A stretch of DNA of 64,000 bases from Litorivicinus sp. (GTDB lineage Bacteria; Pseudomonadota; Gammaproteobacteria; Pseudomonadales; Litorivicinaceae), in NCBI GenBank assembly GCA_028339155.1, contig JAOLBK010000007.1, positions 1 through 64,000 of the forward strand, written 5' to 3'. How positions within the stretch are numbered: the stretch's first letter is position 1; the number at the start of each line of letters is the position of its first letter. The notes beneath the pieces are model-generated. The model made no database searches. It was not told where the DNA came from and saw only the letters and a list, made by a program, of their open reading frames with translations. Shown here in pieces: positions 1 to 15,239 of this stretch. The position numbers and the translations under genes were made by a program.

Positions 1-139
1 TCATCGACAGACCAAGCAATAGGGCAAGAAGCATCGAAGGCATTCCATAGTAGTGGCCCAAGTATTTGGAGAAAATTGCGATCAAAATGCTGATCGCGAG
101 TCCCGGCAATAATTTTTTTATTGAAGAAATATTTTGCAT
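1..139 (-). CDS. YeiH/UPF0324-like membrane protein, N-terminal fragment
   Basis: The first 46 codons of a minus-strand gene run off the left edge. The ATG is at 139-137. The fragment reads MQNISSIKKLLPGLAISILI, then a short loop (SKYLGHYYGMP) and a second hydrophobic stretch (SMLLALLLGLSM). This pattern of 'LPG' followed by a helix, a tyrosine/glycine loop and 'LLALLLG' is typical of the YeiH/UPF0324 family (annotated in databases as putative sulfate exporters, function not firmly proven). The family normally has about 10 membrane helices and 330-350 residues, so most of the gene is missing. The call rests on a short segment. Confidence 0.6.
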   Translation of the reverse strand, partial: MQNISSIKKLLPGLAISILIAIFSKYLGHYYGMPSMLLALLLGLSM

Positions 140-390
140 AATAAATGAGAAGATCTTCGCCTCTCTTAACTCCTTGGCACGACTTTAATTAAGGTACGCT
201 GGGCTTCAAGACACATCCAATGTCTCCGAACGCGCCAGAATAGGGGCAAATAAAAATTTTTTTATAATAATCTTTTTAAAGAGGTAAAACAGAAATTAAA
301 ACTATACAAAATCAGTTTTCGTAAAGTAACAATGCGGTCGTGGTATTTTTCAAGTACGTTTCAGATATGGAACTTCAACAAGGAGCAGTA

Positions 391-582
391 ATGCCAAAAG
401 TAACGAGTGAGGTTGAGACAATAGTGAGAAGTGCACACGATCAGATAATTGAGGGATTGATGGGCCTGAATGTCGAGCAACTGGCAAAAGGACTGGAGTG
501 GTCGCGAGACAATTACTCCAAACTCGACATCGAGCGATTGCTGGAAACAGCCATACAACTTCACTCCGAAGCAAGTGAGTAA
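391..582 (+). CDS. small hypothetical protein (63 aa), possible partner of the next gene
   Basis: A 63-residue acidic, probably helical protein. I start it at ATG 391 because AAGGAG lies 5 bases upstream; an in-frame ATG at 340 and another at 370 lack such a site. No family is recognised. It has no signal peptide or membrane segment. Its stop is only 3 bases before the ATG of the 152-residue gene at 586, so the two are almost certainly co-transcribed and probably translationally coupled. The small-then-larger arrangement resembles antitoxin-toxin gene pairs, but that is only an inference. The upstream region (about 240-320) is distinctly A+T rich and includes a TATAAT at 263-268. Confidence 0.65.
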   Translation: MPKVTSEVETIVRSAHDQIIEGLMGLNVEQLAKGLEWSRDNYSKLDIERLLETAIQLHSEASE

Positions 583-585
583 GTA

Positions 586-1044
586 ATGGTAATACATCAC
601 TATTCGCACGCGCCCTTTAAAGCAGAAATCGAAGAGTCGGGATTTCTGGGATTAGAAGCATGCCGTCTGGAGCACGTTGTATCAGAGGGGCATCACCTAA
701 ATCATCCTGAGGGAGCAGACTGGAGTTATCAATGGAGATCATTAAAAAAAGAACTCAAAATAAGAGGTCGATACCTTTGGTTTACGGAGCAACTATATTC
801 AAAATCTGTGGGCAACCCAGATGTTCCAAAAATTAGATTTTCATTCGATACCAAAGATATCAAGGTATATAGCTGGTTGATGCTCATGGATATAGGATCA
901 AGTGATAAAAAACGTTTTAAAAAAATGAAAGTACTCAGTGAGTCGGGGATAGCATCTGGCGATGACCCATTTAAATGGTGGGTATCCTTCGAAGCAGTGC
1001 CTCTGTCAAAATGTATTGAGATAACAGAGGCAGGATATTTTTGA
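586..1044 (+). CDS. hypothetical protein (152 aa), possibly ADP-ribosyltransferase-fold-like
   Basis: A soluble 152-residue protein with no signal peptide. It follows the 63-residue gene by 3 bases. Residues 3-20 (IHHYSHAPFKAEIEESGF) and the later LWFTE at about 64-68 follow a loose pattern seen at the N-terminus of many small ADP-ribosyltransferase-fold proteins: a His-containing first strand, a helix ending in 'I..sGfl', then a strand with 'lWfT'. I cannot confirm the fold from the sequence alone, and a conserved glutamate is not evident. No specific family is recognised. The pairing with a small upstream gene would fit a toxin-antitoxin module, but this is a hypothesis only. Confidence 0.65.
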   Translation: MVIHHYSHAPFKAEIEESGFLGLEACRLEHVVSEGHHLNHPEGADWSYQWRSLKKELKIRGRYLWFTEQLYSKSVGNPDVPKIRFSFDTKDIKVYSWLMLMDIGSSDKKRFKKMKVLSESGIASGDDPFKWWVSFEAVPLSKCIEITEAGYF

Positions 1045-1162
1045 ACCCAATACTGATTGTTCAATGTCAAAAAAACACCAGGGCCACTCTGTTACTCAAT
1101 GATCCAGGACTTTGGCTAAGGCAATCTTGAACACGTGTAGATTAATGTCTATTTATGGGAAA

Positions 1163-2281
1163 TTAGCTGGATAAAACACGCATTAATCGGGCTCTAAGTA
1201 CTTCCGCAGCTAGGCCAAATACCAGCGCGGCCATCAGATCGTAGACAAGTGCAACTGGAACCATCGAGATGATGACTAATTGGCAAGGTAGCTTAGCTCG
1301 GAAGAGCGTTATCGGGTCACATAGAATCCAGGCAGCATATAAAACTAAAGCCCCCAAAACAGCATTCGGAACCGTTTGCAGAAGAGCGATTACTTGCTCG
1401 CCGAGTAGCCCAGCAAGCAGAATGCAGGTTATACCAAATACCGCAATCGACCACCCAGTTCTGGAACCAAGTGTGTGATGGGCAACCAAACCGCCAGCCC
1501 CATGACACATGGGCATGGCACCCATAGGCGCTAGTAGCAAATTTGCAATTCCCGACGTAAAAGCCAACCGCCGCTCCGTCAGGGCTTTTTCATTTTCAGG
1601 AAAATATTCCTTTGCGATTACGGCTGTAAGGATCATTGCATTTGTAATTGTCAACGCCAACTGCGGGAAAAAAGACGCCTTAATACTCAGAACTAAGGCA
1701 TCAGAAGATGGCCAAGAAAAAGCTGGCCAATACCAGCGTTCGACCACAAAACCGATGGGTAGTTCCGGTACTAAAAACCACCACCCAAAAACTAAAACTA
1801 AGAGACAGCTGACTATTCTTAGTGCCGTTATTTGTAAAATAATCAAGCCAGCAAGCAACAACCACAAGGGACTAGATCCAAAATCTGCCAAGCCGATCGT
1901 GGTTGACACTAAACTGATTGCGAGCGCAACACGCATTCCATGGAGTACTGTGTTTGGAATTAAACACTTCAAAGAATTAGTCACATCAGTCGTGCTTAAA
2001 ACCAGTAAAACGCCACCTAAGAGAAGTCCTGTCGCCATCAAAACTTCAGGAGTTGCCATTCCAGCAATTGCCATTGCAGCAACTGCCTTCATAGGCTGAA
2101 CCGGAATTGGCAGCCGATACACCAACGCTGTCATCAGAGCGAATAAGCCAAAACCGTAAAGAATGCCAACCGGATTCATGCCTGCAACCAGCACCGTGCC
2201 CAGCATCAACGGTAAAAACGTACCCAAATCTGCATAGGCCGAGGATATTTCGGATACAACTGATCTCAATCGTTTTTCCAT
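1163..2281 (-). CDS. MOT1-type molybdate/sulfate transporter
   Basis: A 372-residue polytopic inner-membrane protein, ATG at 2281. It carries the two hallmark motifs of the MOT1-like branch of the SulP-related transporters (MFS_MOT1 domain family): an N-terminal 'YADLGTFLPLMLG' (residues about 15-27) and 'PIPVQPMKAVAAMAI' (about 58-72). Roughly ten hydrophobic segments follow, including a second repeat containing 'GAMPMCHGAGGLVAHH' near residue 255. Characterised members take up molybdate; some related proteins are called sulfate transporters. Its position beside a tungstate ABC transporter and a Mo/W formate dehydrogenase island supports an oxyanion-uptake role. It is transcribed divergently from tupB, with 117 bases between them. 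Confidence 0.85.
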   Translation of the reverse strand: MEKRLRSVVSEISSAYADLGTFLPLMLGTVLVAGMNPVGILYGFGLFALMTALVYRLPIPVQPMKAVAAMAIAGMATPEVLMATGLLLGGVLLVLSTTDVTNSLKCLIPNTVLHGMRVALAISLVSTTIGLADFGSSPLWLLLAGLIILQITALRIVSCLLVLVFGWWFLVPELPIGFVVERWYWPAFSWPSSDALVLSIKASFFPQLALTITNAMILTAVIAKEYFPENEKALTERRLAFTSGIANLLLAPMGAMPMCHGAGGLVAHHTLGSRTGWSIAVFGITCILLAGLLGEQVIALLQTVPNAVLGALVLYAAWILCDPITLFRAKLPCQLVIISMVPVALVYDLMAALVFGLAAEVLRARLMRVLSS

Positions 2282-2398
2282 AGTGTTACCACAGTATTAT
2301 TCCAACCCGAATCTTAGAGCTTTTCAAACAGGTTGCAATTTTCTACCTAAACCTCAAAATGATGCTTGCTTTAAGAAACATGAAAAAAGTACATAATT

Positions 2399-3100
2399 AT
2401 GCTTACTGATGCTTTTGCTGAGGCCTTTCATCTAATTGTCTCAGGCAGTGACGCGTTAACTGAGATCATGGCCCTATCCATCCAGGTAAGCTTAAGCGCA
2501 CTCCTTGCATCAGTGCTCCTGGGCTTACCGATTGGGACGGCACTCGCCATCAGCCAATTCTCAGGGAAACGCATCGCGATCACCATTGTGAATGCCTTAA
2601 TGGGCCTCCCACCAGTAGTCGTTGGGCTCGTTGTCTATTTAATGTTATCGCGCTCTGGACCCTTGGGGGTGCTCGAATTGTTGTACACGCCGACAGCGAT
2701 GGTGATTGCCCAAGTCGCACTAATCACTCCAATTATTGCCGCTATGACTCATCAAGTGATGAGCGATCTGCATGATGAATATAAGGATTTGTTCAAGAGC
2801 CTTGGGATTGGTACAGGTCGAGCCGTGCCAGCTTATATCTGGGACGCAAGATACTCACTCAGCACGACGGTGCTCGCAGGCTTCGGGCGTGCGATTTCGG
2901 AGGTAGGGGCGGTCATGATTGTAGGTGGTAACATCGATCATTTAACCCGAGTAATGACGACAGCAATTGCCCTTGAAACCTCAAGAGGTGAGCTGGCAAT
3001 GGCATTAGCATTAGGAATCGTCCTGTTGATGCTAGCCCTGATTGCAAACGCAGTGGCCACATGGATCCAGGGCTTTGCACAGCGTAACGCGTATGTCTAA
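2399..3100 (+). CDS. tupB: tungstate ABC transporter permease TupB
   Basis: A 233-residue permease with about five to six membrane helices. It has the ABC-permease EAA loop near residues 125-165 ('MSDLHDEYKDLFKSLGIG') and 'GFGRAISEVGAVMIVGGNI' near residue 160, which is typical of the tungstate/molybdate permeases. The length fits TupB (about 230). It is the first gene of tupB-tupC-tupA, and its last 8 bases overlap the start of tupC. The family carries tungstate, with high selectivity in characterised cases, which is relevant because the adjacent formate dehydrogenase may use tungsten. No strong ribosome-binding site is visible before the ATG. Confidence 0.9.
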   Translation: MLTDAFAEAFHLIVSGSDALTEIMALSIQVSLSALLASVLLGLPIGTALAISQFSGKRIAITIVNALMGLPPVVVGLVVYLMLSRSGPLGVLELLYTPTAMVIAQVALITPIIAAMTHQVMSDLHDEYKDLFKSLGIGTGRAVPAYIWDARYSLSTTVLAGFGRAISEVGAVMIVGGNIDHLTRVMTTAIALETSRGELAMALALGIVLLMLALIANAVATWIQGFAQRNAYV

Positions 3101-3848
3101 TGAAATTAGAATAGGTATAGAAGCCGGCATAGTTCAGTCAAATCAATCTTCCCACCGGTCGAAAATCGCTGTGCGTCAACTCTCGCTATCGTTGGGAGGA
3201 GTTCCTTTACTTCGAGACATCAATCTTGATATTCGGGGAAACGGAATTACGATGGTTCTAGGTGCCAATGGCGCCGGAAAAAGTTTGCTTTTAAAATGTC
3301 TTCACGGATTACTAAAGCCACAAGGAGGGGAAATTAAAATTGATGGCAGTCCCCATTTCGAAACCCGACAACAACAGGCCATGGTGTTTCAAAGACCCGT
3401 TCTAATGAGGCGTAGTGTGCTAGCAAATGTCACATTTGCAGCCGCAGAGAATACGGATTCGAAAGAAATCGCTGACCTTCTGAACAGGGTACACTTGGCA
3501 GAAATAGCAAACGTCCCGGCTCGATTATTATCTGGAGGAGAGCAACAACGCCTGGCCTTAGCCCGGGCATTAATCACCAAACCAAGTATACTTTTTCTTG
3601 ATGAGCCTACTGCAAGCCTTGACCCTGCTTCTGCCTTGATCATTGAACGACTAATTCAGGATACAAGTTTAACGGGTGTCAGAATTCTCTTCATCACGCA
3701 TGACATCAATCAAGCTAAACGCCTGGGGCAAGATGTTATCTTCATGCATCGGGGGGAAATTACAGAGCACACTGATAAGAATAAATTTTTCACAAACGCT
3801 GAATCCAGGGAGGCAATAGCCTACTTGAGCGGCGAACTTATATTGTAG
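3093..3848 (+). CDS. tupC: tungstate ABC transporter ATP-binding protein TupC
   Basis: A 251-residue ABC ATPase. I start it at ATG 3093, inside the last codons of tupB, giving an 8-base overlap (ATGTCTAA); an upstream in-frame ATG at 3042 would add an implausible tail. The Walker A is GANGAGKS near residue 60, the signature is LSGGEQQRLALARAL near 150, and the Walker B is ILFLDEPTASLDP. A switch His follows in 'LFITHDINQAKRLG'. The first about 25 residues precede the core and are not conserved. It should energise tungstate import with TupB and TupA. Confidence 0.9.
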   Translation: MSNEIRIGIEAGIVQSNQSSHRSKIAVRQLSLSLGGVPLLRDINLDIRGNGITMVLGANGAGKSLLLKCLHGLLKPQGGEIKIDGSPHFETRQQQAMVFQRPVLMRRSVLANVTFAAAENTDSKEIADLLNRVHLAEIANVPARLLSGGEQQRLALARALITKPSILFLDEPTASLDPASALIIERLIQDTSLTGVRILFITHDINQAKRLGQDVIFMHRGEITEHTDKNKFFTNAESREAIAYLSGELIL

Positions 3849-3873
3849 GAATGACCGGAAATAGGAATCCCTG

Positions 3874-4710
3874 ATGACAACCCGATACGACCTTAAAATG
3901 CGTAATCTCGCAATCGGCCTTATCTTTACAGCCACATTCACTAATGCTGACTCAATCATTCTTCAGTCAACGACGTCCACCAAGAATTCTGGTCTTTATG
4001 AGCATCTGCTTCCTATAATAAAAAAGGAAATTGATCTAGTAGTGAGGGTTGTAGCTGTCGGGACGGGCCAAGCAATTAAAAACGCCGAGCGTTGTGACGG
4101 CGATGTATTATTAGTACACGCGAAAGGGGCTGAAGAAGAATTTGTGAAGGGAGGATTTGGCGTTAAGCGATTCAACCTTATGTATAACGATTTTGTGATT
4201 GTCGGACCGAAAAGTGACCCAGCTAAAATTCAGGGACTAAACGATGCCACGCAAGCTCTTAGAAAAATTGCTTCTAGTAAGTCAATATTCGTGTCTCGTG
4301 GCGATGATTCGGGAACACATAAAGCGGAACTGAGCCTTTGGAGGCAGACGTGGTCTGTTCCATCTCTAATATCGGGGAAATGGTATCTTGAGACAGGCTC
4401 TGGAATGGGAACAACCCTTAACATAGCGGTCGAAATGCGTGCATATGCGATAACCGATCGGGCGACCTGGATTAAATTCGGAAACAAGCGTGACACAAAG
4501 ATTCTTGTTGAAGGGGATTCAAAGCTAGTCAACCAATACGGCATAATTCTGGTCAGTCAGAAAAAATGTCCAACGGTGAATACGGAGGCGGGGCAAAAGT
4601 TTGTGGCTTGGCTGCTGTCGGCTGAGGGGCAAAAGGCGATCGATTCGTATAGCGTAGGCGGTAATCAGTTGTTCTTCGCGAATGCGGCGAAGAATGATAA
4701 CGAACGATAG
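3874..4710 (+). CDS. tupA: tungstate-binding periplasmic protein TupA
   Basis: A 278-residue solute-binding protein. Its N-terminal signal is best seen if translation starts at Met9 (ATG 3898: MRNLAIGLIFTATFTNADS). The start of the mature region carries 'QSTTSTKNSGLYEHLLP', matching the TupA oxyanion-binding motif (TTTST.nSGL), and 'SRGDDSGTHKAELSLW' lies near residue 146. It captures tungstate in the periplasm for TupBC. The gene order B-C-A differs from the more usual A-B-C. Its TAG stop is followed in the same frame by another binding-protein domain (see next entry). Confidence 0.88.
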   Translation: MTTRYDLKMRNLAIGLIFTATFTNADSIILQSTTSTKNSGLYEHLLPIIKKEIDLVVRVVAVGTGQAIKNAERCDGDVLLVHAKGAEEEFVKGGFGVKRFNLMYNDFVIVGPKSDPAKIQGLNDATQALRKIASSKSIFVSRGDDSGTHKAELSLWRQTWSVPSLISGKWYLETGSGMGTTLNIAVEMRAYAITDRATWIKFGNKRDTKILVEGDSKLVNQYGIILVSQKKCPTVNTEAGQKFVAWLLSAEGQKAIDSYSVGGNQLFFANAAKNDNER

Positions 4711-4737
4711 ACGCTTAAATTTACAGTTGCTCAGAAA

Positions 4738-5475
4738 TTGTCAGAAAGAAATCCGATTCTATTCGCCGCCGGCAGTATGGAACACCTCCTACCAAAGCTG
4801 ATCACAGCTTACAAAAAGCGGGGGAAGAGCGCCGACATTGAAATGGTGTTTGGTCCCTCTAGCTCGCTATGCCGCAAGATTGAAGAAAACGAAATTTTCG
4901 ATTTATTTATCGCCGCGTCAACGGTTCACACGAATGCACTCCAGAAAAAAGGGATGCTTAAAAATGTCCAATTACTGGGTATTAACGAAATGGTGATGGT
5001 TTATAGAAAAGGGCTTTCGGAGCGCATAGAGCCCATTGAACGGGTCTTAAAAGATCAAAATTTAATCATCGGAATATCTACGACGGGGCTCGATCCACAC
5101 TCCAATGAAGAACCCAGTATTTTAAAGGAAATTGGTAGAATAACCGGAGAGTCAGTACCAGAGTTAACAAAACGAACTCGTCTAATCACCGGTGGCCGTG
5201 AGACTCCTAACGCGCCTAACGGAAGAAATCAGTACGGGTGGATTATGGAAACGCAACGAGTAGAACTTCTTTTTACCTATTTTTCCAGTGCATTAGCTGC
5301 AGTGGAGGACAATCTCGACCTAAGAATTGTACAGCTGCCCAGGCGTTTGCGGACTGCGGGCGAATATGGTATTGGAATAAGGCCTGGCGCAGGCGCAATG
5401 GCGGCGGATTTTTTTGAGTGGCTTTTGTCGTTGCAAGCAAACGAGATTCTTTTTGAATTGGGATTTCAGAAATAG
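4738..5475 (+). CDS. ModA-like molybdate/oxyanion-binding protein without signal peptide
   Basis: A 245-residue type 2 periplasmic-binding-protein domain. It begins almost directly with 'ILFAAGSMEHLLPKLITAY' and continues with 'FGPSSSLCRKIEENEIFDLFIAAS', features shared with ModA-type proteins (SBP_bac_11). No signal peptide precedes the domain. The only plausible start is the TTG at 4738, which has no convincing ribosome-binding site. It lies in the same reading frame as tupA, separated by a TAG stop and ten sense codons, with no other stop between. It could be a cytoplasmic oxyanion sensor or carrier, or the second half of a TupA-ModA fusion separated by a stop codon. Uptake of molybdate beside TupABC is the general inference. 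Confidence 0.72.
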   Translation: MSERNPILFAAGSMEHLLPKLITAYKKRGKSADIEMVFGPSSSLCRKIEENEIFDLFIAASTVHTNALQKKGMLKNVQLLGINEMVMVYRKGLSERIEPIERVLKDQNLIIGISTTGLDPHSNEEPSILKEIGRITGESVPELTKRTRLITGGRETPNAPNGRNQYGWIMETQRVELLFTYFSSALAAVEDNLDLRIVQLPRRLRTAGEYGIGIRPGAGAMAADFFEWLLSLQANEILFELGFQK

Positions 5476-5739
5476 AGTTTTCAGTTGTCAAAAATCAGTT
5501 TTAGGACATGGATATTGAGCTGTAATCATAGAGTGAGCGAACAGAACAGTCGGTCGTCAAGCGGTCTAAGATAGTGCCATAGTGGCCGAAAGGATATGAG
5601 TGGAGCAACTGGAAGATTTAAAAGTTCGGTTAAGATCATGATCGATCGAAGTTCTTGCGGGCAAAAAATAAAGTTGGGCACTGCATTTTTTGTTGAAATA
5701 CTGGTGCTGAAGAAGATGCTAGTGGACTGTTATTCAAGG

Positions 5740-6438
5740 TTAAAAATTTAGTTTCAATCTTTCCATTCGTTTTGTAATTAGAGTGGACGAGATGGCAAAG
5801 TTAACCCCAGCGTCGATATCAGCGTCTTTTGTGTAGATCGCTGAGATTAAACCGAGCAAATTTCCGTTGGCGTCGACCAAAGGACCGCCTGAAGAACCGG
5901 GATTTGATGCAGCATCTGTTTGAATAAATGCCTCAATCTTGTTAAATCCAAGCGCCGTCCTGAGGGGCCCGGACACGACGCCACAGCTCATGCTAACCCC
6001 AAGCCCAAATGGGTTACCCAAGACGCACACGTGAGTCCCAGGGCCGGGCGTAATATCCAAAAGTCTCAGGGGCACACCCTTCGTAGGAACTCTTAACAAG
6101 GCAAGATCAGCGTCGTGGTCCAAACCAACGACTTCGGCGTCGACCCTTCGGCCATCGGTTAGGCGGACTTCGATACGGGTGGCATTTTTGACAACATGTG
6201 CCGCGGTCAAGATTAAAAAACCGCTGGCTTTGGTATTAGGAAGGTCCACGAAAACACCGGTCCCTTCGGGAGAGGTCCGTGATGGGGCTCCGAATCCTGG
6301 TCGAGAATATCCAGGCCAAGTCGGGAGAATTGAGACCACGGACTTGTTTGATGCTACCCACGTTTGGGGACCGTGGTTCGCATGGGTCGTCGTCGAAAGT
6401 GAAAGAGAGAAGAAAAACGACCATAGGAGATTTTTCAT
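5740..6438 (-). CDS. secreted HtrA-like trypsin-fold serine protease without PDZ domain
   Basis: A 232-residue protein with a cleavable signal peptide (about residues 1-20, ending THA). The catalytic triad is visible: His81 in 'LTAAHV', Asp111 in 'DADLALLRV' and Ser183 in 'NPGSSGGPL'. The domain is DegP/HtrA-like, but the chain stops after the protease core, so no PDZ domain is present. Its ATG overlaps the stop of the WD40-cytochrome gene as ATGA, so the two are translationally coupled. It is the last gene of the formate dehydrogenase minus-strand operon. A role in periplasmic maturation or quality control of the complex is inferred only from position. Confidence 0.85.
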   Translation of the reverse strand: MKNLLWSFFFSLSLSTTTHANHGPQTWVASNKSVVSILPTWPGYSRPGFGAPSRTSPEGTGVFVDLPNTKASGFLILTAAHVVKNATRIEVRLTDGRRVDAEVVGLDHDADLALLRVPTKGVPLRLLDITPGPGTHVCVLGNPFGLGVSMSCGVVSGPLRTALGFNKIEAFIQTDAASNPGSSGGPLVDANGNLLGLISAIYTKDADIDAGVNFAISSTLITKRMERLKLNF

Positions 6439-7751
6439 TGGGTTGTGGTGGCTCGCTTAAGGTACCGAATTAAATCGTCCCGGTCCTCCTGACGCTTAAT
6501 CCGCTGCACCGGCATTTTAGACCCAGGAGTCACAATGTCGGGGCCCTCACGGAAGAGCCGATCGATCGTATCCTCATTCCATACGAGATCTTGGGCCAGT
6601 AACTCTGGAGAATATGGATAATTTTCGACCTTCCCAACCTTGCGCCCAAACACTCCATAAAGTGTTGGCCCAGCCCTGCGCTTGCTTGAAGGAGCCAAAC
6701 TATGACAGACACTACATTTACGGGCAAATTGTTGCGCGCCGTTATCGGCTGGCTCGCCGGAGTGAAAGCGCCGGGATCCGCCAGGTAACACGCTCGGAAC
6801 GATAAGATTTTCTAGGGGTATCCGGGTAATCCAATCATCGAGTCCAGCAAACAATAAATTCTCTGAATTTTCGGTTAGCTGTAACGCCCACACCGGACCG
6901 GTAACAGCTTGAAAGTCATGTTCGATTTCACCGACTACAGCATCAGCAATTACAATTCGGCCCTCTGCAGTACCGAAAGCCATTTTTTCAGATTGAGGGT
7001 CAATCGAGAGTGCTAGAACAGGTGGTCCACCAATCCAAAGTTCGATTTCCGGTCCCTTTCCGTCAAGGCTTACACTTTTCATGACACCGTTAGAACCACC
7101 ATAAGCGAGGACATTTAACTCGTGATCAATCGCAAGGACGTTGATACCGAAACCATTTTTAACAACACTACGGACATATTCACCGTTTGACAGATCCCAG
7201 TAACGAATATGTCCATCAGCGCCGGCCGAATAAAGGTTTTGTGCGTCAGGAGAAAATACAGAGGCATTTACAAGACCCCGATGGCCTTTAAGAAATCGTA
7301 TGCGGGTGCCTTTTTGGACATCCCAAATTCCGATGCGCCGGTCCCAACTCGAAGAAGCTAATTGAGTGCTATCGGAACTGAACGCTAGATGAATGATCTT
7401 GGCGGTGTGCCCATCTAGTGGAATGGGCAGAGGCGCAATATCGGGTTTCTTTAAGTCATCTACTCGCCACAAGAAAATTTGATTATCGTCACCGGCGGTC
7501 GCGAGCCAATTTCCGTCAGGGGAGAAAGTCGCCGCATTGACTGCGGCGTCATGAGCAACAAGACGTTTCAGTTCTCTAATTGGATTAGTAGCCCAAACGA
7601 CTGCGGTATAATCAAAGCTAGTGCTGACAACAAGGCGTTGACTAGCGGAGTAGGCTAGCCCCTTTATTGGTCCACCGTGACCTGTGTATCGGTCAAAAGC
7701 GAAACACGTTACCGAAATGATCCAAAGCGTTACAACGATGACAGGACGCAC
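6435..7751 (-). CDS. periplasmic WD40 beta-propeller fused to cytochrome c
   Basis: A 438-residue protein with a signal peptide (residues 1-18, 'VTLWIISVTCFA'). Residues about 20-320 hold seven WD40-like repeats (for example 'AAVNAATFSPDGNWLATAGDDNQIFLWRV' near 70-97 and 'SPDAQNLYSAGADGHIRYWDL' near 167-187). Residues about 335-435 are a class I cytochrome c: heme attachment C346-S-V-C349-H350 and a likely axial Met413 in 'GSKMP'. The propeller probably docks onto a partner while the heme passes electrons. Its neighbours suggest an electron outlet, or a sensor or assembly factor, for formate dehydrogenase. I know of no assigned function for this fusion. Confidence 0.85.
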   Translation of the reverse strand: MRPVIVVTLWIISVTCFAFDRYTGHGGPIKGLAYSASQRLVVSTSFDYTAVVWATNPIRELKRLVAHDAAVNAATFSPDGNWLATAGDDNQIFLWRVDDLKKPDIAPLPIPLDGHTAKIIHLAFSSDSTQLASSSWDRRIGIWDVQKGTRIRFLKGHRGLVNASVFSPDAQNLYSAGADGHIRYWDLSNGEYVRSVVKNGFGINVLAIDHELNVLAYGGSNGVMKSVSLDGKGPEIELWIGGPPVLALSIDPQSEKMAFGTAEGRIVIADAVVGEIEHDFQAVTGPVWALQLTENSENLLFAGLDDWITRIPLENLIVPSVLPGGSRRFHSGEPADNGAQQFARKCSVCHSLAPSSKRRAGPTLYGVFGRKVGKVENYPYSPELLAQDLVWNEDTIDRLFREGPDIVTPGSKMPVQRIKRQEDRDDLIRYLKRATTTQ

Positions 7752-7759
7752 ATATCCCC

Positions 7760-8014
7760 CTAGACACTCAATTGATTAATTCCCGAGTTACAAATACGTA
7801 TCCAAAATATATAAGGCCGTTTAATAGTCGACATCTCAACGATTTCGTGACCCGAAAGCCCACAAAATGCTGGTACATCTTTAATCGTTGTCGAGTCTGA
7901 AGTAACGAGTTTTACCAATTGACCATGGTTTAATGATTCGATGCGTTTTTTTAACTTCAGCACTGGTAATGGGCACTTGAGCCCGACGACGTCGACCTCA
8001 AGATCTGCGATCAT
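7760..8014 (-). CDS. TusA-family sulfur carrier protein
   Basis: An 84-residue cytoplasmic protein with the TusA signature 'GLKCPLPVLKLKK'; Cys14 of the CPxP motif is the persulfide-carrying residue in the family. It lies between the 41-residue membrane peptide and the WD40-cytochrome gene, in the formate dehydrogenase operon. TusA-type proteins pass sulfur between desulfurases and acceptors. Here the likely route is toward FdhD and the sulfido ligand of the Mo/W cofactor, which is inferred from position. The C-terminal tail after residue 65 (RPYIFWIRICNSGINQLSV) is somewhat longer than usual. Confidence 0.85.
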   Translation of the reverse strand: MIADLEVDVVGLKCPLPVLKLKKRIESLNHGQLVKLVTSDSTTIKDVPAFCGLSGHEIVEMSTIKRPYIFWIRICNSGINQLSV

Positions 8015-8024
8015 AATTACTATC

Positions 8025-8150
8025 TTAGTATAACCGGACAGATGGCGCGGACTGCATTTCAGCCGATGAAAATCCCATTCCGCTCATAATGTAATAAGCG
8101 GCGAATGACAACACAATGGTTGCCGCAAAAGCTGTGAACATCGTTTTCAT
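8025..8150 (-). CDS. 41-residue single-pass membrane peptide in the fdh operon
   Basis: A short gene directly after fdhC. It encodes MKTMFTAFAATIVLSFAAYY followed by a short polar tail ending SAPSVRLY. The start is ATG 8150-8148, preceded by a strong ribosome-binding site (GGGAGG, then 5 bases), and fdhC ends only 2 bases upstream. The first 25 residues form one hydrophobic helix, either an anchor or an uncleaved signal. It may be an accessory subunit that stabilises the FdhC heme subunit; this is inferred. The spacing and ribosome-binding site make a real gene likely although it is very short. Confidence 0.75.
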   Translation of the reverse strand: MKTMFTAFAATIVLSFAAYYIMSGMGFSSAEMQSAPSVRLY

Positions 8151-8152
8151 CG

Positions 8153-9319
8153 CTACCTCCCTGCCTGACCGGCTTTGGCCTCTTCTTCTTCTACCCAAAG
8201 ATCATGGTGCTGACGAGCCCACTCCAAGTCGACTTGGCCACTTCCCATCGCGTCGAATGCGCCTTCCATACCAACACTACCTATATAGATATGCGCCACA
8301 ATCGCTATGATCATAGTAATTGCTACGATAGCATGCCACAAATGTGACAACTGCATTTCTTCATGAGGTAGTAACTCGGCCGGTAGGGCAGAGCCGGTAA
8401 CCGCATTAATCAATGCGAAGGTTTCAGCAAACATAGGCATCTGAAATGGAAATAAAAGTGAAAGGCCTGAGACTGAAACAGAGGCCCCCATAATTATAGT
8501 CATCCAGAAAATAATCTTCTGCCCCGCATTGAATTTCTGAGCCGATGGGTGGGCGTTACCGATAATGCCGCCACCCTGCTTCAGCCAATCCCAATCAAGT
8601 TTATTTGGGATATTGTGAGCGACCCACATCAGAAAAATAGCGACGAGGGATCCCATAAATACCCAAGCGATATTGTTATGGACCCAGATTGAAAAGGTCG
8701 CGATGGCGGCGTTGGCTTCATGTCCAAAAACAGGAATTAAAATTGCGCGCCCAAATAAAAGCAAAAGGCCTGTGGCAGACAACATAATGAATGATCCTGC
8801 CAAACACCAATGGCCAAAACGCTCGAATGACTTAAAGCGCTCAATAGTTTGGCCCGAAGGGCCTCCCTCTATTGTCATCCGACCGCGAGTGAAATAGAAC
8901 GCGATCAGTGCAACTAAAATCCCACCAATGCCATAACCAGCATATCCACGGATACTAGTTGCACGAGTTATTAGCCATGAAATACCACCGTCCTGAACTA
9001 AGACATCTGCAGCTGGCCCATTGTTAGAGACTTTGATATCTACTTCAGAATAGCGGATACCCCGATATACATCAGCATTTGATATTCCACCCTGAGTGCC
9101 CAGCATATTGTTTATGGACTGTGCTTTATCAGGATCACCTAAATTTTCGCGACGGAAACTTTCGTCGACTTCTATTCCTTTTTGTCGCGCAAGAACATCT
9201 TGAAGTGTCTGCGCTCCACCCGTGGACGCTCGCTGGCCGTCTGATTGTTCTGCATAAGACGGAGCTATCGCTAAGGTTAGGACTGCAACCAAAAATGAAC
9301 CAATCACTTGTATTTTCAT
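8153..9319 (-). CDS. fdhC: formate dehydrogenase cytochrome b556 (gamma) subunit
   Basis: A 388-residue membrane subunit that hosts two b hemes and passes electrons to quinone. It has an N-terminal signal peptide (residues 1-23), a periplasmic extension of about 95 residues, then a helix near 125-143 and four core helices. Candidate heme ligands are His170 ('FERFGHW'), His214 ('WVHNN'), His329 ('SHLWHAI') and His343 ('VAHIYIGSVGMEGAF'). The C-terminal 'MGSGQVDLEWARQHHDLW' is characteristic of the family. The extended N-terminus is like the long FdhC subunits of the FdhABC type and unlike the short E. coli FdnI. It is preceded by a strong hairpin in the fdhB-fdhC gap. Confidence 0.93.
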   Translation of the reverse strand: MKIQVIGSFLVAVLTLAIAPSYAEQSDGQRASTGGAQTLQDVLARQKGIEVDESFRRENLGDPDKAQSINNMLGTQGGISNADVYRGIRYSEVDIKVSNNGPAADVLVQDGGISWLITRATSIRGYAGYGIGGILVALIAFYFTRGRMTIEGGPSGQTIERFKSFERFGHWCLAGSFIMLSATGLLLLFGRAILIPVFGHEANAAIATFSIWVHNNIAWVFMGSLVAIFLMWVAHNIPNKLDWDWLKQGGGIIGNAHPSAQKFNAGQKIIFWMTIIMGASVSVSGLSLLFPFQMPMFAETFALINAVTGSALPAELLPHEEMQLSHLWHAIVAITMIIAIVAHIYIGSVGMEGAFDAMGSGQVDLEWARQHHDLWVEEEEAKAGQAGR

Positions 9320-9352
9320 GACGACCTCAGGAAAAATTATTTAGTAAATAAG

Positions 9353-9380
9353 AAACGGGCGGACTATTGTCCGCCCGTTT
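9353..9380 (-). terminator. strong hairpin between fdhB and fdhC (terminator/attenuator-like)
   Basis: A perfect 12-bp inverted repeat (arm 9353-9364, AAACGGGCGGAC on the plus strand; 4-base loop; arm 9369-9380). Read on the minus strand, the hairpin is followed by UUUCUUAUUU, so it resembles a partially efficient intrinsic terminator. It sits inside an otherwise continuous operon, so it probably tunes the ratio of fdhAB to fdhC messages or protects the 3' end of the upstream mRNA. Confidence 0.75.
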
Positions 9381-9389
9381 ATCGGCTTC

Positions 9390-9998
9390 TTAGCCGCCTT
9401 TCTTTTCGTAGGCTGTTCCCCAGCCCCATGCGCCCGAGCCGAAGCCACGGGTAACAACGCGCTCGCGGTAAACCGCTGCCACATCATCCCCGTCGCCGGC
9501 TAGAAGTGCTTTTGTCGCGCACTGCTCTGCGCACGCTGGTAATTTACCTTCGGCAATTCGGTTACTTCCATACTTTTGGTATTCAGCTTGCGAATTATCT
9601 TCCTCAGGTCCACCCGCACAAAATGTACACTTGTCCATTTTGCCGCGAGATCCAAAGTTACCCGCTTGGGGAAACTGTGGAGCACCGAACGGACAAGCAT
9701 AAAAGCAGTATCCGCAACCGATACACAGATCCTTCGAGTGCAAAACTATGCCGTCATCTGTCTGATAGAAACAGTCGACAGGGCATACCGCCATACACGG
9801 GGCATCCGAACAATGCATACAAGCGACAGAAATTGATCTCTCACCTGGGCTACCGTCGTTAATAGTGACTACCCTGCGGCGATTGATACCCCACGGGACG
9901 TCGTTTTCGTTCTTGCATGCGGTAACACAAGCGTTGCATTCGATACACCGCTCCGCGTCGCATAGGAACTTGGCTCTCGCCTTTCCACCTAATGACAT
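9390..9998 (-). CDS. fdhB: formate dehydrogenase iron-sulfur (beta) subunit
   Basis: A 202-residue ferredoxin-like subunit carrying Cys motifs for four [4Fe-4S] clusters: 'CIECNACVTACK' near residue 18, 'CMHCSDAPCMAVCPVDC' near 60, 'CIGCGYCFYACPFG' near 92, and 'CTFC' plus 'PACAEQC' farther on. It relays electrons from FdhA to FdhC on the periplasmic side. At about 200 residues it lacks the C-terminal membrane helix of E. coli FdnH (about 290). This fits FdhABC-type enzymes, where the beta subunit is held only by its partners. It starts 12 bases after fdhA. Confidence 0.93.
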   Translation of the reverse strand: MSLGGKARAKFLCDAERCIECNACVTACKNENDVPWGINRRRVVTINDGSPGERSISVACMHCSDAPCMAVCPVDCFYQTDDGIVLHSKDLCIGCGYCFYACPFGAPQFPQAGNFGSRGKMDKCTFCAGGPEEDNSQAEYQKYGSNRIAEGKLPACAEQCATKALLAGDGDDVAAVYRERVVTRGFGSGAWGWGTAYEKKGG

Positions 9999-10010
9999 GT
10001 TTCGCCCTCC

Positions 10011-12902
10011 TTAAGCTGGCATGATTCTACATAGGGTTGCTTTGGTTTCCTGCATTTGGGTAACCGCGTCATAACCATATGTAGTAACTACGTTTGCTGA
10101 TTCTCCGATCACGTACGGGTCAGCTCCATCCGGATATTTATCACGGCGATCTTCGCCCTGGTACATCCCGCCGAAGTGGAACGGCATAAACGCTACACCT
10201 TCTCCAACACGCTGGGTCACCATTGCCATTACCTTCACTTTTCCGCCCTCAGGACCTTCGACCCAGACCTGATCTCCATCACGGATTCCGAGGTTATTTG
10301 CATCACGAGGATTGACCTCAACAAACATATCTTGCTGCAATTCAGCCAGCCACGGATTAGAACGCGTTTCGTCTCCACCGCCCTCGTATTCGACTAAACG
10401 TCCTGACGTCAGGATCATCGGATAGTCTTTCGAGAAGTCATTTTTCTGTATTGAGGCATACAACGTTGGTAGACGAAACGAGAAGCGATCTTTGTACGTT
10501 GGATAATCCGCCACTAAATCTCGACGATTCGTGTACAAAGGCTCACGATGGAGCGGCACTGGATCTGGGAAATTCCAAACAACGCAACGAGCCTTCGCAT
10601 TCCCGAATGGTGCACACTCATGTTTGATTGCAACTCGCTGGATACCACCAGAAAGATCTGTTTTCCAGTTAGTTTTAACGCCAGCAACCTTTTTAATAGC
10701 TGCACGTTCGTCGTCAGTTAGATCTTTATCCCAACCTAAGTCCATCAGCATTTGCATCGTGAACTCTGGATAACCATCCTTGATTTCAGAACCGACGGAA
10801 TAAACACCTTCGGCAAGAAGATTCTCGCCTTCTCTTTCAACACCAAATCTGGCACGGAAAGTTAAACCACCCTCGGAGACCCGCTTCGACATGTCATACA
10901 GGTTAGGAGTTCCTGGATGCTTCATCTCTGGTGGACCCCATGATGGCCACGGCATTCCGTAGTAATCGCCGTCTGCCGGCCCACCAATTGCTTTGAGAGT
11001 CGTCTTGTCAAACGTATGCTGATTAGCCATATGTAATTTAATACGCTCAGGCGACTGACCTGTATATCCGATAGTCCACATACCACGGTTAATTTCGCGA
11101 GTTATATCCTCAATAAGAGGCTCATCACCATTAATCTTGATGTTTCTAAAGAGGCGATCCGTATATCCAAACTTATCTGCAAATAACTTCATAATTACGT
11201 GATCTGGCTTTGAATCGAATAATGGTTCAATTACCTTATCTCGCCACTGAATCGAACGATTAGATGCTGTCACTGAGCCATACGTCTCAAATTGGGTAGT
11301 CGTTGGCAGCAAATAAACACCGTCCTTTCGATCATGAAGAATCGCCGATACTGTCGGATGTGGGTCAACCACAACCAACAAATCGAGTTTTTCCATGGCC
11401 TTCTTCATGTCGGTCATTCGCGACTGAGAGTTAGGCGCATGACCCCACAAAACCATCGCCCGAGTGTTGTTGGGCTGACCGATATTTTCTTTGGCTTCTA
11501 AAACACCATCGATCCATCGTGAAACAGGAATGCCCGTCTCATTCATCATCGCTTTGGTTTTACCATCTTTGGTTTTCATAGACGCAAAGCGCCCTTTCAA
11601 CCAACCCAGATCCTCTTCCCAAACACGCGCCCAGTGGGCCCATGAGCCAGGCTTCAGTCCGTAGTAGCCAGGTAATGTATTTGCAAGAACGCCTAAATCA
11701 GTTGCGCCCTGTACGTTACAGTGACCACGGAAAATGTTAGTACCGCCGCCACTAGTGCCCATATTGCCGAGCGCCAATTGAAGAATGCAATAAGCGCGAG
11801 TATTGTTATTTCCGTTTGTATGCTGGGTACCACCCATACACCAAATAACAGTACCTGGGCGGTTATTTGCTAGGGTCCTTGCAACGCGCTGAAGTTGTGA
11901 ACCAGGCACGCCCGTGACGCGCTCAGTTTCTTCAGGCGTCCACTTAGAAACCTCTTTCTGAATGTCGCCCATACCCCAAACACGGGTACGAATGAACTCT
12001 TTGTCTTCCCATCCATTCTCAAAAATATGGTAAAGGAGGCCCCAGATCAGCGCAACATCTGAACCCGGACGAAAACGAACATATTCGTCAGCGTGAGCAG
12101 CCGTTCTGGTAAATCGAGGATCACAAACAATAAGCGGAGCATTGTTCTGCTCCTTGGCCTTCATAACGTGCTGAAGTGAGACAGGATGAGCCTCAGCCGG
12201 ATTTCCACCAATTATGAAAATGGCCTTGGATTTGTGAATATCATTATACGAATTCGTCATTGCACCATAGCCCCAAGTGTTTGCAACACCCGCTACCGTT
12301 GTGGAATGACAAATACGTGCCTGGTGATCAACGTTGTTGGTCCCCCAGTAAGCCGCAAATTTTCGATACAAATACGACTGTTCATTGTTCGTCTTGGCCG
12401 ACCCTAACCAATAAACACTGTCTGGTCCGCTTTCTTCGCGGATTTTAAGCATTTGGTCGCCAATATCGTTAATGGCATCTTCCCACGAAACTCTTGTATA
12501 AGTGCCGTTAACAAGTTTCATAGGATATTTTAAACGACGCTCCCCGTGTCCCAGCTCGCGAACCGACGAACCCTTTGCACAATGAGCACCAAGATTAAAT
12601 GGTGAATCCCAGCCCGGCTCTTGACCGACCCACACCCCGTCGCGCACTTCAGCTTGAACGGTACAGCCGACGGAACAGTGTGTACAAACACTCTTGACTA
12701 GTTGAGTTTTTCCATCAGTAGAATTAGCACCAACGGCCGCTTCAACAGTACGTGGCGTCATAGAAAATGCAGCCAAACCACCCACGGCCAAACCGGTTGA
12801 ACGTAAAAACGTCCGACGATCTAGTTTGTGAGAGGCTACATTCTTCAGTAAGGACGACACTCGGGAGCCAACTGCTACCCCATTCGTCTTTTTCCTTAAC
12901 AT
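10011..12902 (-). CDS. fdhA: formate dehydrogenase catalytic (alpha) subunit, Cys-type, Tat-exported
   Basis: A 963-residue Mo/W-bis-MGD enzyme that oxidises formate to CO2 in the periplasm. A Tat signal is present (RR at residues 29-30, 'DRRTFLRS', then a hydrophobic stretch). The N-terminal [4Fe-4S] ligands are Cys73, Cys76, Cys80 and Cys108, with Lys110 likely in the electron path. The metal ligand is Cys198, followed by the conserved His199 ('QARICHSTTV'), so this is a cysteine enzyme and no UGA/selenocysteine is used. 'GNPAEAHP' and the C-terminal dinucleotide-binding domain are present. Whether Mo or W is used cannot be read from the sequence, but the nearby tungstate transporter makes W plausible. 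Confidence 0.96.
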   Translation of the reverse strand: MLRKKTNGVAVGSRVSSLLKNVASHKLDRRTFLRSTGLAVGGLAAFSMTPRTVEAAVGANSTDGKTQLVKSVCTHCSVGCTVQAEVRDGVWVGQEPGWDSPFNLGAHCAKGSSVRELGHGERRLKYPMKLVNGTYTRVSWEDAINDIGDQMLKIREESGPDSVYWLGSAKTNNEQSYLYRKFAAYWGTNNVDHQARICHSTTVAGVANTWGYGAMTNSYNDIHKSKAIFIIGGNPAEAHPVSLQHVMKAKEQNNAPLIVCDPRFTRTAAHADEYVRFRPGSDVALIWGLLYHIFENGWEDKEFIRTRVWGMGDIQKEVSKWTPEETERVTGVPGSQLQRVARTLANNRPGTVIWCMGGTQHTNGNNNTRAYCILQLALGNMGTSGGGTNIFRGHCNVQGATDLGVLANTLPGYYGLKPGSWAHWARVWEEDLGWLKGRFASMKTKDGKTKAMMNETGIPVSRWIDGVLEAKENIGQPNNTRAMVLWGHAPNSQSRMTDMKKAMEKLDLLVVVDPHPTVSAILHDRKDGVYLLPTTTQFETYGSVTASNRSIQWRDKVIEPLFDSKPDHVIMKLFADKFGYTDRLFRNIKINGDEPLIEDITREINRGMWTIGYTGQSPERIKLHMANQHTFDKTTLKAIGGPADGDYYGMPWPSWGPPEMKHPGTPNLYDMSKRVSEGGLTFRARFGVEREGENLLAEGVYSVGSEIKDGYPEFTMQMLMDLGWDKDLTDDERAAIKKVAGVKTNWKTDLSGGIQRVAIKHECAPFGNAKARCVVWNFPDPVPLHREPLYTNRRDLVADYPTYKDRFSFRLPTLYASIQKNDFSKDYPMILTSGRLVEYEGGGDETRSNPWLAELQQDMFVEVNPRDANNLGIRDGDQVWVEGPEGGKVKVMAMVTQRVGEGVAFMPFHFGGMYQGEDRRDKYPDGADPYVIGESANVVTTYGYDAVTQMQETKATLCRIMPA

Positions 12903-12973
12903 AAAAAACCCTCCTCAGGATTTTGGAGCGATTATTCGGGGCCAAATGCTACCCGCACTCGCTCAGTTTTTGT

Positions 12974-13168
12974 TTAGAATCGTGTTGTTTCTAAGTACTT
13001 CTTGTAATGCGCGTTCTTACTGAGTCCGCTCGACTTGCGAATCTCTGTTTCAGTGCCAGCGACCGCTTGGGTTCCCGCTGCGGCTGCAACTGCAGCCATT
13101 GGTAACCCGGCCGTTAGTAGTTTTAAGAAACTACGGCGTCCCGTCTTAGTTATTTTCTGCTCACTCAT
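12974..13168 (-). CDS. small Tat-signal protein of formate dehydrogenase regions
   Basis: A 64-residue protein. I start it at ATG 13168 (MSEQKITKTGRRSFLKLL) because AAGGAG lies just upstream; an in-frame ATG at 13213 would add 15 unlikely residues. It has a perfect twin-arginine motif (GRRSFLKLL), an Ala-rich h-region and a short mature part. It matches the known family of small Tat substrates found next to FDH genes ('formate dehydrogenase region TAT target'). Its role is unknown; it may be an accessory subunit or help export FdhA. It lies between torD-like and fdhA. Confidence 0.88.
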   Translation of the reverse strand: MSEQKITKTGRRSFLKLLTAGLPMAAVAAAAGTQAVAGTETEIRKSSGLSKNAHYKKYLETTRF

Positions 13169-13214
13169 GAACATCTCCTTTTGTGCTCTCACACGTATTG
13201 GCTCTCGGCCCATT

Positions 13215-13826
13215 CTACTCGATACGAAACGCTTCCTGTTCTATCGCCATAAATGCACTCCCTAAGGAGCCCACCGGCGCATAAAGCACGGCGCTTTCCG
13301 TTTTTTCGAGATCACTAAAACAATGCGCTGCCCAAGGGGCAATGTGCGCATTGAAAAATTCTTTTTGAAGATCAAGAGATTGTGACTGAACGAGTGATCC
13401 GCTCGCCAACCCAGACATTATTTCACACAGTGAACCAATATGGTCTTCTGGCTCCACAACACCACTGATCCGTTGAATTCCAAGAAATCGCATCTTTGCC
13501 CGTAAGTCTGCCAGCGGCTTCTCATGCAGAAATCCCGTTAAATAATAGCTTGCGTACGGAAGAACTTCTCCGCGACTGACACCAATAAAAACTTGGTTAA
13601 ACTCACGCTCAACAGTTGGCTGATCCAAAACCTTCGCAACTTGAGCAAGCGCAGAAATTGCTGAACCAATTTCACCATCGCCCGCCTTTAGTTTACGCAA
13701 AGAAATCAATGTGGATTCTGATGGCGCTCCTAAAAGAAGACTGCCTAAAAGCGCATACAAATCAGAGCGAGCCTGATCTTCTGGGGATACACTACTGTCG
13801 AATTCTGCTGCCGACTCCGCGATCAT
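13215..13826 (-). CDS. TorD/DmsD-family chaperone for formate dehydrogenase
   Basis: A 203-residue all-helical cytoplasmic protein of the TorD family (redox-enzyme maturation proteins). Its family motifs are 'EFNQVFIGVSRGEVLPYASYYLTGFL' (about residues 96-121) and 'EPEDHIGSLCEIMSGL' (about 151-166). Such chaperones bind Tat signal peptides and hold the apo-enzyme until the cofactor is inserted. Its place immediately upstream of the Tat-signal protein and fdhA makes FdhA the likely client. The 46-base gap to the next gene suggests co-transcription. Confidence 0.88.
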   Translation of the reverse strand: MIAESAAEFDSSVSPEDQARSDLYALLGSLLLGAPSESTLISLRKLKAGDGEIGSAISALAQVAKVLDQPTVEREFNQVFIGVSRGEVLPYASYYLTGFLHEKPLADLRAKMRFLGIQRISGVVEPEDHIGSLCEIMSGLASGSLVQSQSLDLQKEFFNAHIAPWAAHCFSDLEKTESAVLYAPVGSLGSAFMAIEQEAFRIE

Positions 13827-13923
13827 TTATTCTTATCCCGTTATATTTCAACTGCCGTTTCCGACATTCTTCTTATATTGCACTGTATCGCAACCTTTTA
13901 CAGTGAGCAACACCTTAAACTTA

Positions 13924-14607
13924 CTAACTGAATTGCATCCTTGGCGGAGCGGAGATTTCCGCGGTCACCACATCAGTTTCTTCTACTTTTTCCCATTCCG
14001 CCTGCTCTTGCTCTTGCTCTTGCTCTTGCTCTTGCTCTTGCTCTTGCTCTTGCTCTTGCAAATTATCAAATTCGCTCTCTGTCTCAATCAATTCAGCACC
14101 ATGAACCTCAGCTTTAGATTGGCTATCTACGCCAACGACATCCTCAGAGCTCTCATCAGAAAGTGACTCGAGAGTATCAAGGACCAAGGACGCATACCCT
14201 TTTCCTACCTCGTAAATAGTTTGCATATTCTCTATGCACATTACTGCGTCCGTATAATCATCACAATATTCATCAAGTCCATCTATATTGGCCAGTAATG
14301 GATTTGTTTTCCAAAATGCCCTGAGGGCTTTATGCCGAATTCGATCAGGAACACGGCCATCCATGAAACCCACAACATTATCCCCAAGCTTCAATGTTTC
14401 GGGGTCAGGAAGCTCTAATGTTTGGAGGATTTCCGAATCAGTCTTGCCTGCAAACTCATCTTCTTCTATGGCTTCAGCCTGACCCTGAACCTCTTTAGTA
14501 AGCGGAAGACTCGTCTCATCCAATTGCTTGAGATCAAGACGTTTTTTCTCATCCGCAACTTTTAATTTCCGTTGAGACCAGCTAGACAACACCCCATCGT
14601 CACTCAA
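13924..14607 (-). CDS. DUF3306 protein with Glu-Gln repeat tail
   Basis: A 227-residue soluble protein of the DUF3306 family. The conserved part is residues about 1-125, starting 'SWSQRK' and including 'ALRAFWKTNPLLANIDGLDEYCDDYTDA'. The C-terminal third is acidic and low-complexity, with about ten Glu-Gln pairs encoded by a hexanucleotide repeat at 14003-14059. Its ATG overlaps the stop of the DUF3305 gene as ATGA, so the two are translated together. DUF3305 and DUF3306 genes occur with formate dehydrogenase clusters in proteobacteria. Their function is unknown, though assembly of the enzyme is a common guess. Confidence 0.88.
   Translation of the reverse strand: MSDDGVLSSWSQRKLKVADEKKRLDLKQLDETSLPLTKEVQGQAEAIEEDEFAGKTDSEILQTLELPDPETLKLGDNVVGFMDGRVPDRIRHKALRAFWKTNPLLANIDGLDEYCDDYTDAVMCIENMQTIYEVGKGYASLVLDTLESLSDESSEDVVGVDSQSKAEVHGAELIETESEFDNLQEQEQEQEQEQEQEQEQEQAEWEKVEETDVVTAEISAPPRMQFS
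14003..14059. repeat. hexanucleotide tandem repeat in the DUF3306 gene
   Basis: Nine and a half perfect copies of TGCTCT (plus strand), encoding alternating Glu-Gln on the minus strand. The unit length is a multiple of three, so slippage would change tail length without shifting the frame. No interruptions are seen in the array. Confidence 0.95.
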
Positions 14608-15239
14608 TGCTTTTTCCTCTTTTTTAAAGATCCCGGCGTTCGGTACACATCGGCCACCTGCTCAACTCGCGCATCACCAATGCCATCGTCAACTTGATCG
14701 ATATCAAGTCGGTCACGCTTCCGCTTTTTAAAAGGCTCTTCAATGTAATGATAGTTAATAAATTCCTGTGCCCAACCAATGATGACTGGCGGCAACGGCA
14801 CCGGCTCAACTAACCCGAATCCACTATCTAGCTCATCTTGAGCCGCATAAGCAGAAAGCGTCACTTCTTTAACAACCCAGCCCACTGCGGACTCGCTTTC
14901 ATCTTCATCCAAAACTACAAATGCAGAAGGTGGTGACATGGTCAATGAAACTTTATAAGCCTCAACCTCCGAACGGTGCAGCTCGATCTCAACTGATCTA
15001 GCGTGATACTCCACAACCTCACCTTCACGGCGCAACTCCGTCCACTCAGGAAAATTGGCACCTGGGACCAAAGCCACAGGCGTCCATACGTCAGTCGCCC
15101 AGCGGGTCACGCCAGGAGATTTTTTCATCACGACACCCACGGGCATACGCACCATCCGCGCCGAGAAAATGTCTGATTGGTCAGATTTCGAAGATTTATC
15201 GACCATTATTTCGACCCCAAATTCGTCTTTAATTATCAT
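14604..15239 (-). CDS. DUF3305 protein
   Basis: A 211-residue protein of the DUF3305 family. Diagnostic stretches are 'MPVGVVMKKSPGVTRWATDVW' (residues about 32-52), 'REGEVVEYHARSVEIELHRSEVEAYKVSL' and 'SAYAAQDELDSGFGLVEPVPLPP', followed by 'HYIEEPFKKRKRDR'. It is the first gene of the minus-strand fdh operon and is divergent from the polyferredoxin gene, with 60 bases between them that must hold both promoters. Function is unknown; a role in FDH biogenesis is inferred from its constant association with these clusters. The C-terminus is rich in Lys/Arg. Confidence 0.88.
   Translation of the reverse strand: MIIKDEFGVEIMVDKSSKSDQSDIFSARMVRMPVGVVMKKSPGVTRWATDVWTPVALVPGANFPEWTELRREGEVVEYHARSVEIELHRSEVEAYKVSLTMSPPSAFVVLDEDESESAVGWVVKEVTLSAYAAQDELDSGFGLVEPVPLPPVIIGWAQEFINYHYIEEPFKKRKRDRLDIDQVDDGIGDARVEQVADVYRTPGSLKKRKKH

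Follow-up and report, generated by a model that had tools for sequence, protein, structure and literature searches.

The stretch of DNA analysed in our study (the window; 64,000 nucleotides from a Litorivicinus sp. genome of 1.88 Mb, 88% complete) carries the genes tupB, tupC and tupA of an ABC importer, followed on the same strand by a gene for a ModA-like protein, which is present in one copy in this genome (Table 1). The MOT1-like permease gene on the other side of the cluster adjoins tupB in several relatives as well. In comparison with the NCBIfam models, TupB matched its family at E 1.4e-47 (162 bits, cut-off 320), TupC gave 110.6 bits (cut-off 400), with a match to only positions 1-219 of the 319, and TupA gave 220.5 bits (cut-off 400). 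Because all three proteins fall below these cut-offs, tungstate is a substrate which we infer rather than assign for the transporter. The start of tupC is placed at an in-frame ATG, while the ORF listing begins at TTG 3042. TupA is 59-66% identical to its near-full-length relatives and its N-terminus has a hydrophobic peak of 2.12.

Table 1. Genes and other features of the window at the tup cluster and the formate dehydrogenase genes.
Feature	Position	Strand	Basis
MOT1-like molybdate permease	1163..2281	-	PF16983 MFS_MOT1, E 2.4e-39
tupB, ABC permease	2399..3100	+	NCBIfam ABC_perm1, E 4.1e-76, above cut-off
tupC, short ABC ATPase, named by position	3093..3848	+	ABC_tran, E 1.4e-31
tupA, tungstate-binding protein, N-terminal signal sequence, 278 aa	3874..4710	+	NCBIfam TupA, E 2.5e-65
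Spacer, 27 nt (nine sense codons), no clear Shine-Dalgarno	4711..4737	+	sequence
ModA-like protein without signal peptide, 245 aa, TTG start	4738..5475	+	SBP_bac_11, PRK03537 group, fold
Intergenic stretch	5476..5739	.	convergent HTH_17 + PBP_like regulator of relatives absent here
Formate dehydrogenase genes	8153..12902	-	ORFs
Formate dehydrogenase, cytochrome-type subunit	8153-9319	-	role read from sequence
Formate dehydrogenase, iron-sulphur subunit	9390-9998	-	role read from sequence
Formate dehydrogenase, catalytic subunit	10011-12902	-	TIGR01591, E 3.1e-143, below cut-off

The domain of the ModA-like protein is complete, as Pfam SBP_bac_11 was matched at E 1e-24 over residues 8-244, and neither a TOBE match nor a DNA-binding domain was found in the protein by the domain search. 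Its best family match, nearly full length, is the PRK03537 group (NF002915-NF002920), named 'molybdate ABC transporter substrate-binding protein', in which PRK03537.1-4 matched residues 8-244 at E 1.6e-42. The score of 145.5 bits is below the curated cut-off of 288 (NF002918), and the missing signal peptide contradicts the periplasmic transport which this name implies. The curated cut-off of TIGR01256 (ModA) was also not reached (37 bits against 62.5). The AlphaFold2 model, built with 11 sequences, has pLDDT of 86.8 and pTM of 0.81, and the whole length of the protein is predicted to take the ModA fold. Structural comparison placed it with ModA (1atg, 1wod, 4rxl and 7t4z; Z 19.8-20.5), the top three solved structures being 7t4z, 1atg and 4rxl (Z 20.5, rmsd 2.9-3.0 over 215-217 residues). 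However, AcfC (4jb7, Z 19.3) and a sulfate-binding protein (6ddn, Z 19.1) lie within about 1.5 Z of ModA, so that the fold leaves the ligand undecided. The serines which we take to line the oxyanion pocket of ModA appear aligned in the window protein, and the block ITGGRE..P.AP.GRNQYGWIMETQ is nearly invariant within the genus. On the other hand, the protein is only 14-24% identical to these ModA proteins, has no signal peptide and adjoins tupA instead of modBC.

At the junction, tupA ends with TAG (4708-4710). From 4711 on, its frame meets no further stop before the TAG at 5473-5475. The first nine codons after the tupA stop are sense codons, and the tenth, TTG 4738, is the sole ATG, GTG or TTG in this frame before the ModA-like domain. 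The next in-frame ATG is at residue 14 (AAGSM), and a start there would drop strand 1 together with a serine presumed to belong to the pocket. The initial annotation, which had described a TAG between tupA and an in-frame, complete ModA-like domain with a TTG as its only start and no ribosome-binding site, was confirmed on this point, TTG 4738 being the only ordinary start and no ribosome-binding site being clear. In all 11 same-genus relatives compared at the junction (the ten complete orthologues and G017), the ModA-like gene has its own ATG, 16-25 nt past the tupA stop; in ten of them the two genes are in different frames, and in one (L026) they share a frame. The frame is shared also in the distant genome G250 and at the start of the pseudogene of G008, and such sharing is by itself a one-in-three coincidence. 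A ribosome-binding motif of AGGA, GGAG or GGAT type was seen by eye in 10 of the 11 relatives, and none is clear in L027 or in the window. In the alignment of the complete orthologues, which omits G017, G019 and G011 (contig ends) and G008 (pseudogene), all starts fall in the first column, and the window protein has one or two extra residues ahead of strand 1. The window TupA also runs past the usual end in the relatives by the C-terminal residues AKNDNER (4690-4710), so the junction has drifted in the window lineage. Since the relatives have their own ATG, mostly out of frame, the ModA-like gene is taken as a separate gene, the fourth after tupB, tupC and tupA. It is most likely translated from TTG 4738, and translation from a TTG lacking a clear ribosome-binding site may be weak.

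The window protein and the ten complete orthologues have at most four residues between the first possible start and strand 1, which leaves no room for a signal peptide; a cytoplasmic location is therefore predicted for the window protein as well as for the orthologues of the genus. An N-terminal hydrophobic segment (peak 2.1-3.2) was found in all ten signal-bearing homologues from other genera (G076, G262, G298, G408, G250, G812, G789, G722, G856 and G650), two of which look lipoprotein-like by eye. In the matched part, which does not include the lipobox cysteines, each of these ten proteins contains two cysteines and no more, at the positions of V86 and F182 of the window protein and in the contexts NxxC and YC. 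None of the 27 signal-less rows (11 of the genus and 16 from two other gammaproteobacterial families) retains both cysteines: the second is missing from every row, and the first from 11/11 of the genus and 8/16 of the others. One row of the cysteine table and of the tree, L048, was included in a form truncated at 179 aa and is a near-copy of L049. The loss of the pair fits a disulphide which would be superfluous in the cytoplasm, and one or two events lie behind the correlation between cysteines and signal peptide. Both cysteines are missing in the seven ModA rows too; the pair is thus a trait of the subfamily and does not settle the older state. These features support, as to location, the cytoplasmic oxyanion-binding protein which was one of the readings initially offered, a role as sensor being a hypothesis.

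Homologues were searched in 369 genomes of the class, and in 398 of the phylum and 390 of the order (both E up to 1e-15). In the order outside the genus, G076 gave the only full-length match; G934 and G1051 matched at about 1e-17 in the N-terminal half only. The signal-bearing gene lies directly after tupA in 7 of the 10 genomes (not in G076, G262 and G650), where it could possibly encode a second binding protein for TupBC. This order, tupA and then a ModA-like gene with signal peptide, was observed in several proteobacterial families (L135, L136, L137 and L140-L143). Signal-less homologues are held by 10 of the 12 matching genomes of one family and by 6 of the 121 genomes searched of another, whose seventh match is an ordinary ModA; from gene content, the former family is probably Enterobacterales and the latter Pasteurellaceae. 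In 14 of these 16 homologues, at most 12 residues separate the first possible start from strand 1. L147 and L148 have a longer open frame overlapping the preceding gene, with hydrophobic peaks of 0.22 and 1.5, and hydrophobic residues stand upstream of the first start codon in L149. A MolA orthologue, directly before the signal-less gene or beyond the transporter genes, was found in the cluster at 13 of the 15 loci fetched from the two families (G808 is outside this set), the exceptions being L191, with an adjacent ATPase gene, and L194. As MolA query we used the L145/L195 protein, whose match to HI_1472 (3psa) has E 2.6e-142. Four of the six signal-less copies in the Pasteurellaceae-like family are clustered in this way. 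In three genomes of the genus (G001, G003 and G014), the ModA-like gene has FecBCD-like genes after it, and the binding protein linked to them in G001 is only distantly MolA-like (E 4.3e-13; best 4pag at 1e-49). By gene content, the signal-less genes are thus located at tungstate or molybdate import loci.

In the phylogenetic tree, the window protein joined PRK03537-type relatives, apart from the seven ModA rows (100/100). The clade of the genus (99/100), whose branch is long (2.36), clusters with nine of the signal-bearing proteins (82/88), while the signal-less proteins of the two other families form a clade of their own (94/94). By parsimony two changes are needed, and a single signal-less clade gave AU p of 0.096; a common origin of all the signal-less proteins is neither shown nor rejected by this value. 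With the window protein as sole query, no relative was confirmed in viral contigs.

We give a probability of about 0.6 to the reading that the fourth gene is a separate one whose product, a formerly periplasmic protein of ModA fold, buffers or accepts and/or senses imported tungstate or molybdate in the cytoplasm. The ancestor would have worked in the periplasm, next to TupA, as a second binding protein containing one disulphide. With the later loss of both the signal peptide and the cysteine pair, the protein would have moved to the cytoplasm, where it would bind tungstate or molybdate delivered by TupBC and act as a buffer or acceptor and/or as a sensor damping the uptake. The sequence features suggest that the protein probably works inside the cell and make it a candidate sensor or buffer for the imported oxyanion; binding in the cytoplasm as buffer or acceptor, possibly as sensor, is the best-supported proposal for its function.

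Intracellular binding of molybdate and tungstate in bacteria is assigned, in the part of PMC11980592 consulted, to TOBE proteins and a cage-like storage protein. Mop/molbindin and Tub, which are TOBE proteins, would do the same intracellular binding as proposed here but with a different domain, no TOBE match being found in the window protein or in its genome. Further, signal-less members are already included in NCBIfam, as residues 1-244 of L152, a signal-less homologue, are matched by NF002916 (244 positions) with 508 bits. No description of a cytoplasmic ModA was found in the literature searched, the scope of which mostly excluded subscription papers. An excerpt of PMC3928620 lists HI1469, 'modA', beside molABC and modD-salX-cysU in Haemophilus influenzae; by this listing, the gene is of modA type and stands at a mol locus, as do four of the six signal-less copies of the Pasteurellaceae-like family. 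In the section seen of PMC4031551, repression of molB implies a factor coupling cytoplasmic molybdate to the transcription of molABC, and by analogy a signal-less ModA at a mol locus would be a natural candidate for it. As a tentative generalization, which we consider rather doubtful at present, the signal-less ModA-type proteins may form a class of cytoplasmic tungstate/molybdate receptors, relocated at tup and mol loci in one or two events and supplying trans-inhibition or transcriptional feedback for importers without TOBE, including the molABC factor. If so, a binding-protein fold in the cytoplasm would be a different solution to oxyanion binding, reached through loss of the export signal. 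The names of the signal-less members would also need correction, as a transporter binding protein in the usual sense is impossible without export. Moreover, the feedback on molABC uptake discussed in that section of PMC4031551 would become testable through one gene.

A narrower form of the preferred explanation, with which it can hold together, is that the protein chiefly serves as a partner in regulation: once loaded with oxyanion it would bind TupBC or MolBC from inside, or the neighbouring protein with helix-turn-helix (HTH) and PBP domains, and stop the uptake. We regard this as possible, at well below even odds. TupC shows no TOBE regulatory domain, and therefore any feedback would need another protein; signal-less copies stand at the mol loci for which the coupling factor was deduced in the portion of PMC4031551 cited above. 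A convergent HTH_17 + PBP_like gene is present in 15 of the 22 genus genomes, including all ten near-complete ones, on the far side of the tup cluster, directly or after the FecBCD-like genes. The binding domain of its product is similar to the C-terminal region of PRK14498 molybdopterin biosynthesis proteins. However, the ModA-like protein itself has no DNA-binding domain, and G008 retains the regulator without an intact ModA-like copy. Moreover, the regulator gave no match in the window genome, and no remnant of it was detected at 5476-5760 of the window (best E 1.0); absences from this genome, 88% complete, are weak evidence. A TOBE domain was not found in the window genome, nor in G005, G013 and G015, which retain the ModA-like gene. 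Small TOBE proteins were found in five genus genomes. Those of G001, G003 and G014 are encoded close to the tup cluster and are single-TOBE (Mop-like) proteins (L206 in G014, L204 in G003 and L205 in G001), and those of G021 and G018 are encoded elsewhere.

The profile search matched 18 of the 22 genus genomes, with an intact full-length copy in 11, the window included. Contig ends truncate the copies of G017 and G019, that of G011 is a 37-residue fragment at a contig end, and G020, G006 and G007 gave weak matches only; in G020 the matching protein, judged by eye, is an ordinary signal-bearing ModA whose gene has permease and ATPase genes after it. No match was obtained in G012, G016, G004 and G018. 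The tupA gene is present in 16 of the 22 genomes; tupABC was counted in 15 of 25 genomes in the part of PMC8269220 consulted, where the OM252 clade, which includes HIMB30 and LSUCC0096, is named 'Ca. Halomarinus'. The ModA-like gene was not found in G020 and G012, though tupA is retained there, and in G008 the orthologue (L034, contig C41, 3693-4406) is a pseudogene with nine stops beside open frames of tupA and the regulator; the gene is therefore dispensable. In the relatives it is under purifying selection, with dN/dS (NG86) of 0.15, 0.14 and 0.16 in three close pairs against 0.04, 0.08 and 0.14 for tupA. Nine relatives share 72 invariant columns, of which 61 (85%) are retained by the window protein, as compared to 94-100% for the relatives in leave-one-out comparison, while for tupA the window retains 126 of 138 (91%; relatives 91-100%). 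These comparisons omit the partial L033 and L022, in which tupA is cut by a contig end and lies in two frames. In L022 (G015:C354, 10-322) the end of tupA is split over the two frames, either a frameshift or an assembly error being possible.

An early pseudogene, with a degraded start, scarcely made and having lost its function together with the regulator, is an unlikely alternative for the window copy. It would agree with TTG in place of ATG, the unclear ribosome-binding site, the regulator not found in the window genome, the clear pseudogene of G008, the 85% retention and the end branch of 0.93, by which the window copy has diverged further than any other member of its clade. It is opposed by 245 open codons and by the 61 of 72 invariant columns retained, far above the overall identity of 42-46% with the relatives. 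Moreover, this identity, at TupA identity of 65-68%, is little below the 47-55% among relatives whose TupA proteins are 69-73% identical. By these comparisons the ModA-like gene is fast-evolving everywhere, and the window copy looks functional.

Against the preferred cytoplasmic location, the protein could still reach the periplasm by unconventional export and feed TupBC as a second binding protein, as the position of 7 of the 10 signal-bearing homologues directly after tupA might suggest; in view of the absence of any N-terminal hydrophobic stretch and of the cysteine pair broken in every signal-less row, this is very improbable. Least credible of all is readthrough of the TAG at 4708, giving some two-domain TupA-ModA protein exported through the TupA signal peptide, for which the open frame and the poor TTG would speak, since all 11 relatives have separate ATG genes (not in the tupA frame in 10 of them, the tupA stop being TAA in eight and TAG in three), the RNA of 101 nt around the TAG folds no better than shuffles (z 0.33) and the window protein lacks the cysteine pair of the signal-bearing homologues. 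A recent split of a fused gene, also proposed in the initial annotation, found no support: no fusion was seen in the 11 relatives or among the other homologues read, and the two-gene order occurs outside the genus too, as 7 of the 10 signal-bearing homologues directly follow tupA. The separate genes with proper starts which the annotation had named as refuting evidence are what the relatives have, and both readthrough and the split fusion were discarded on this gene arrangement and on the RNA fold.

A Moco/Tuco riboswitch or other RNA element was rejected, as the Rfam scan of positions 1-16000 gave three matches (E up to 1), all far under the gathering scores and none a Moco element. The scan for promoters and terminators showed no excess over shuffles. 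At 5740-7751 on the minus strand of the window, beside the formate dehydrogenase genes, a gene pair encodes a trypsin-like protein and one of WD40 type, the latter with a CxxCH motif of the cytochrome c type. The pair is not seen in L127 (G020) and L034 (G008); by eye, it stands beside formate dehydrogenase genes in 11 relative loci too.
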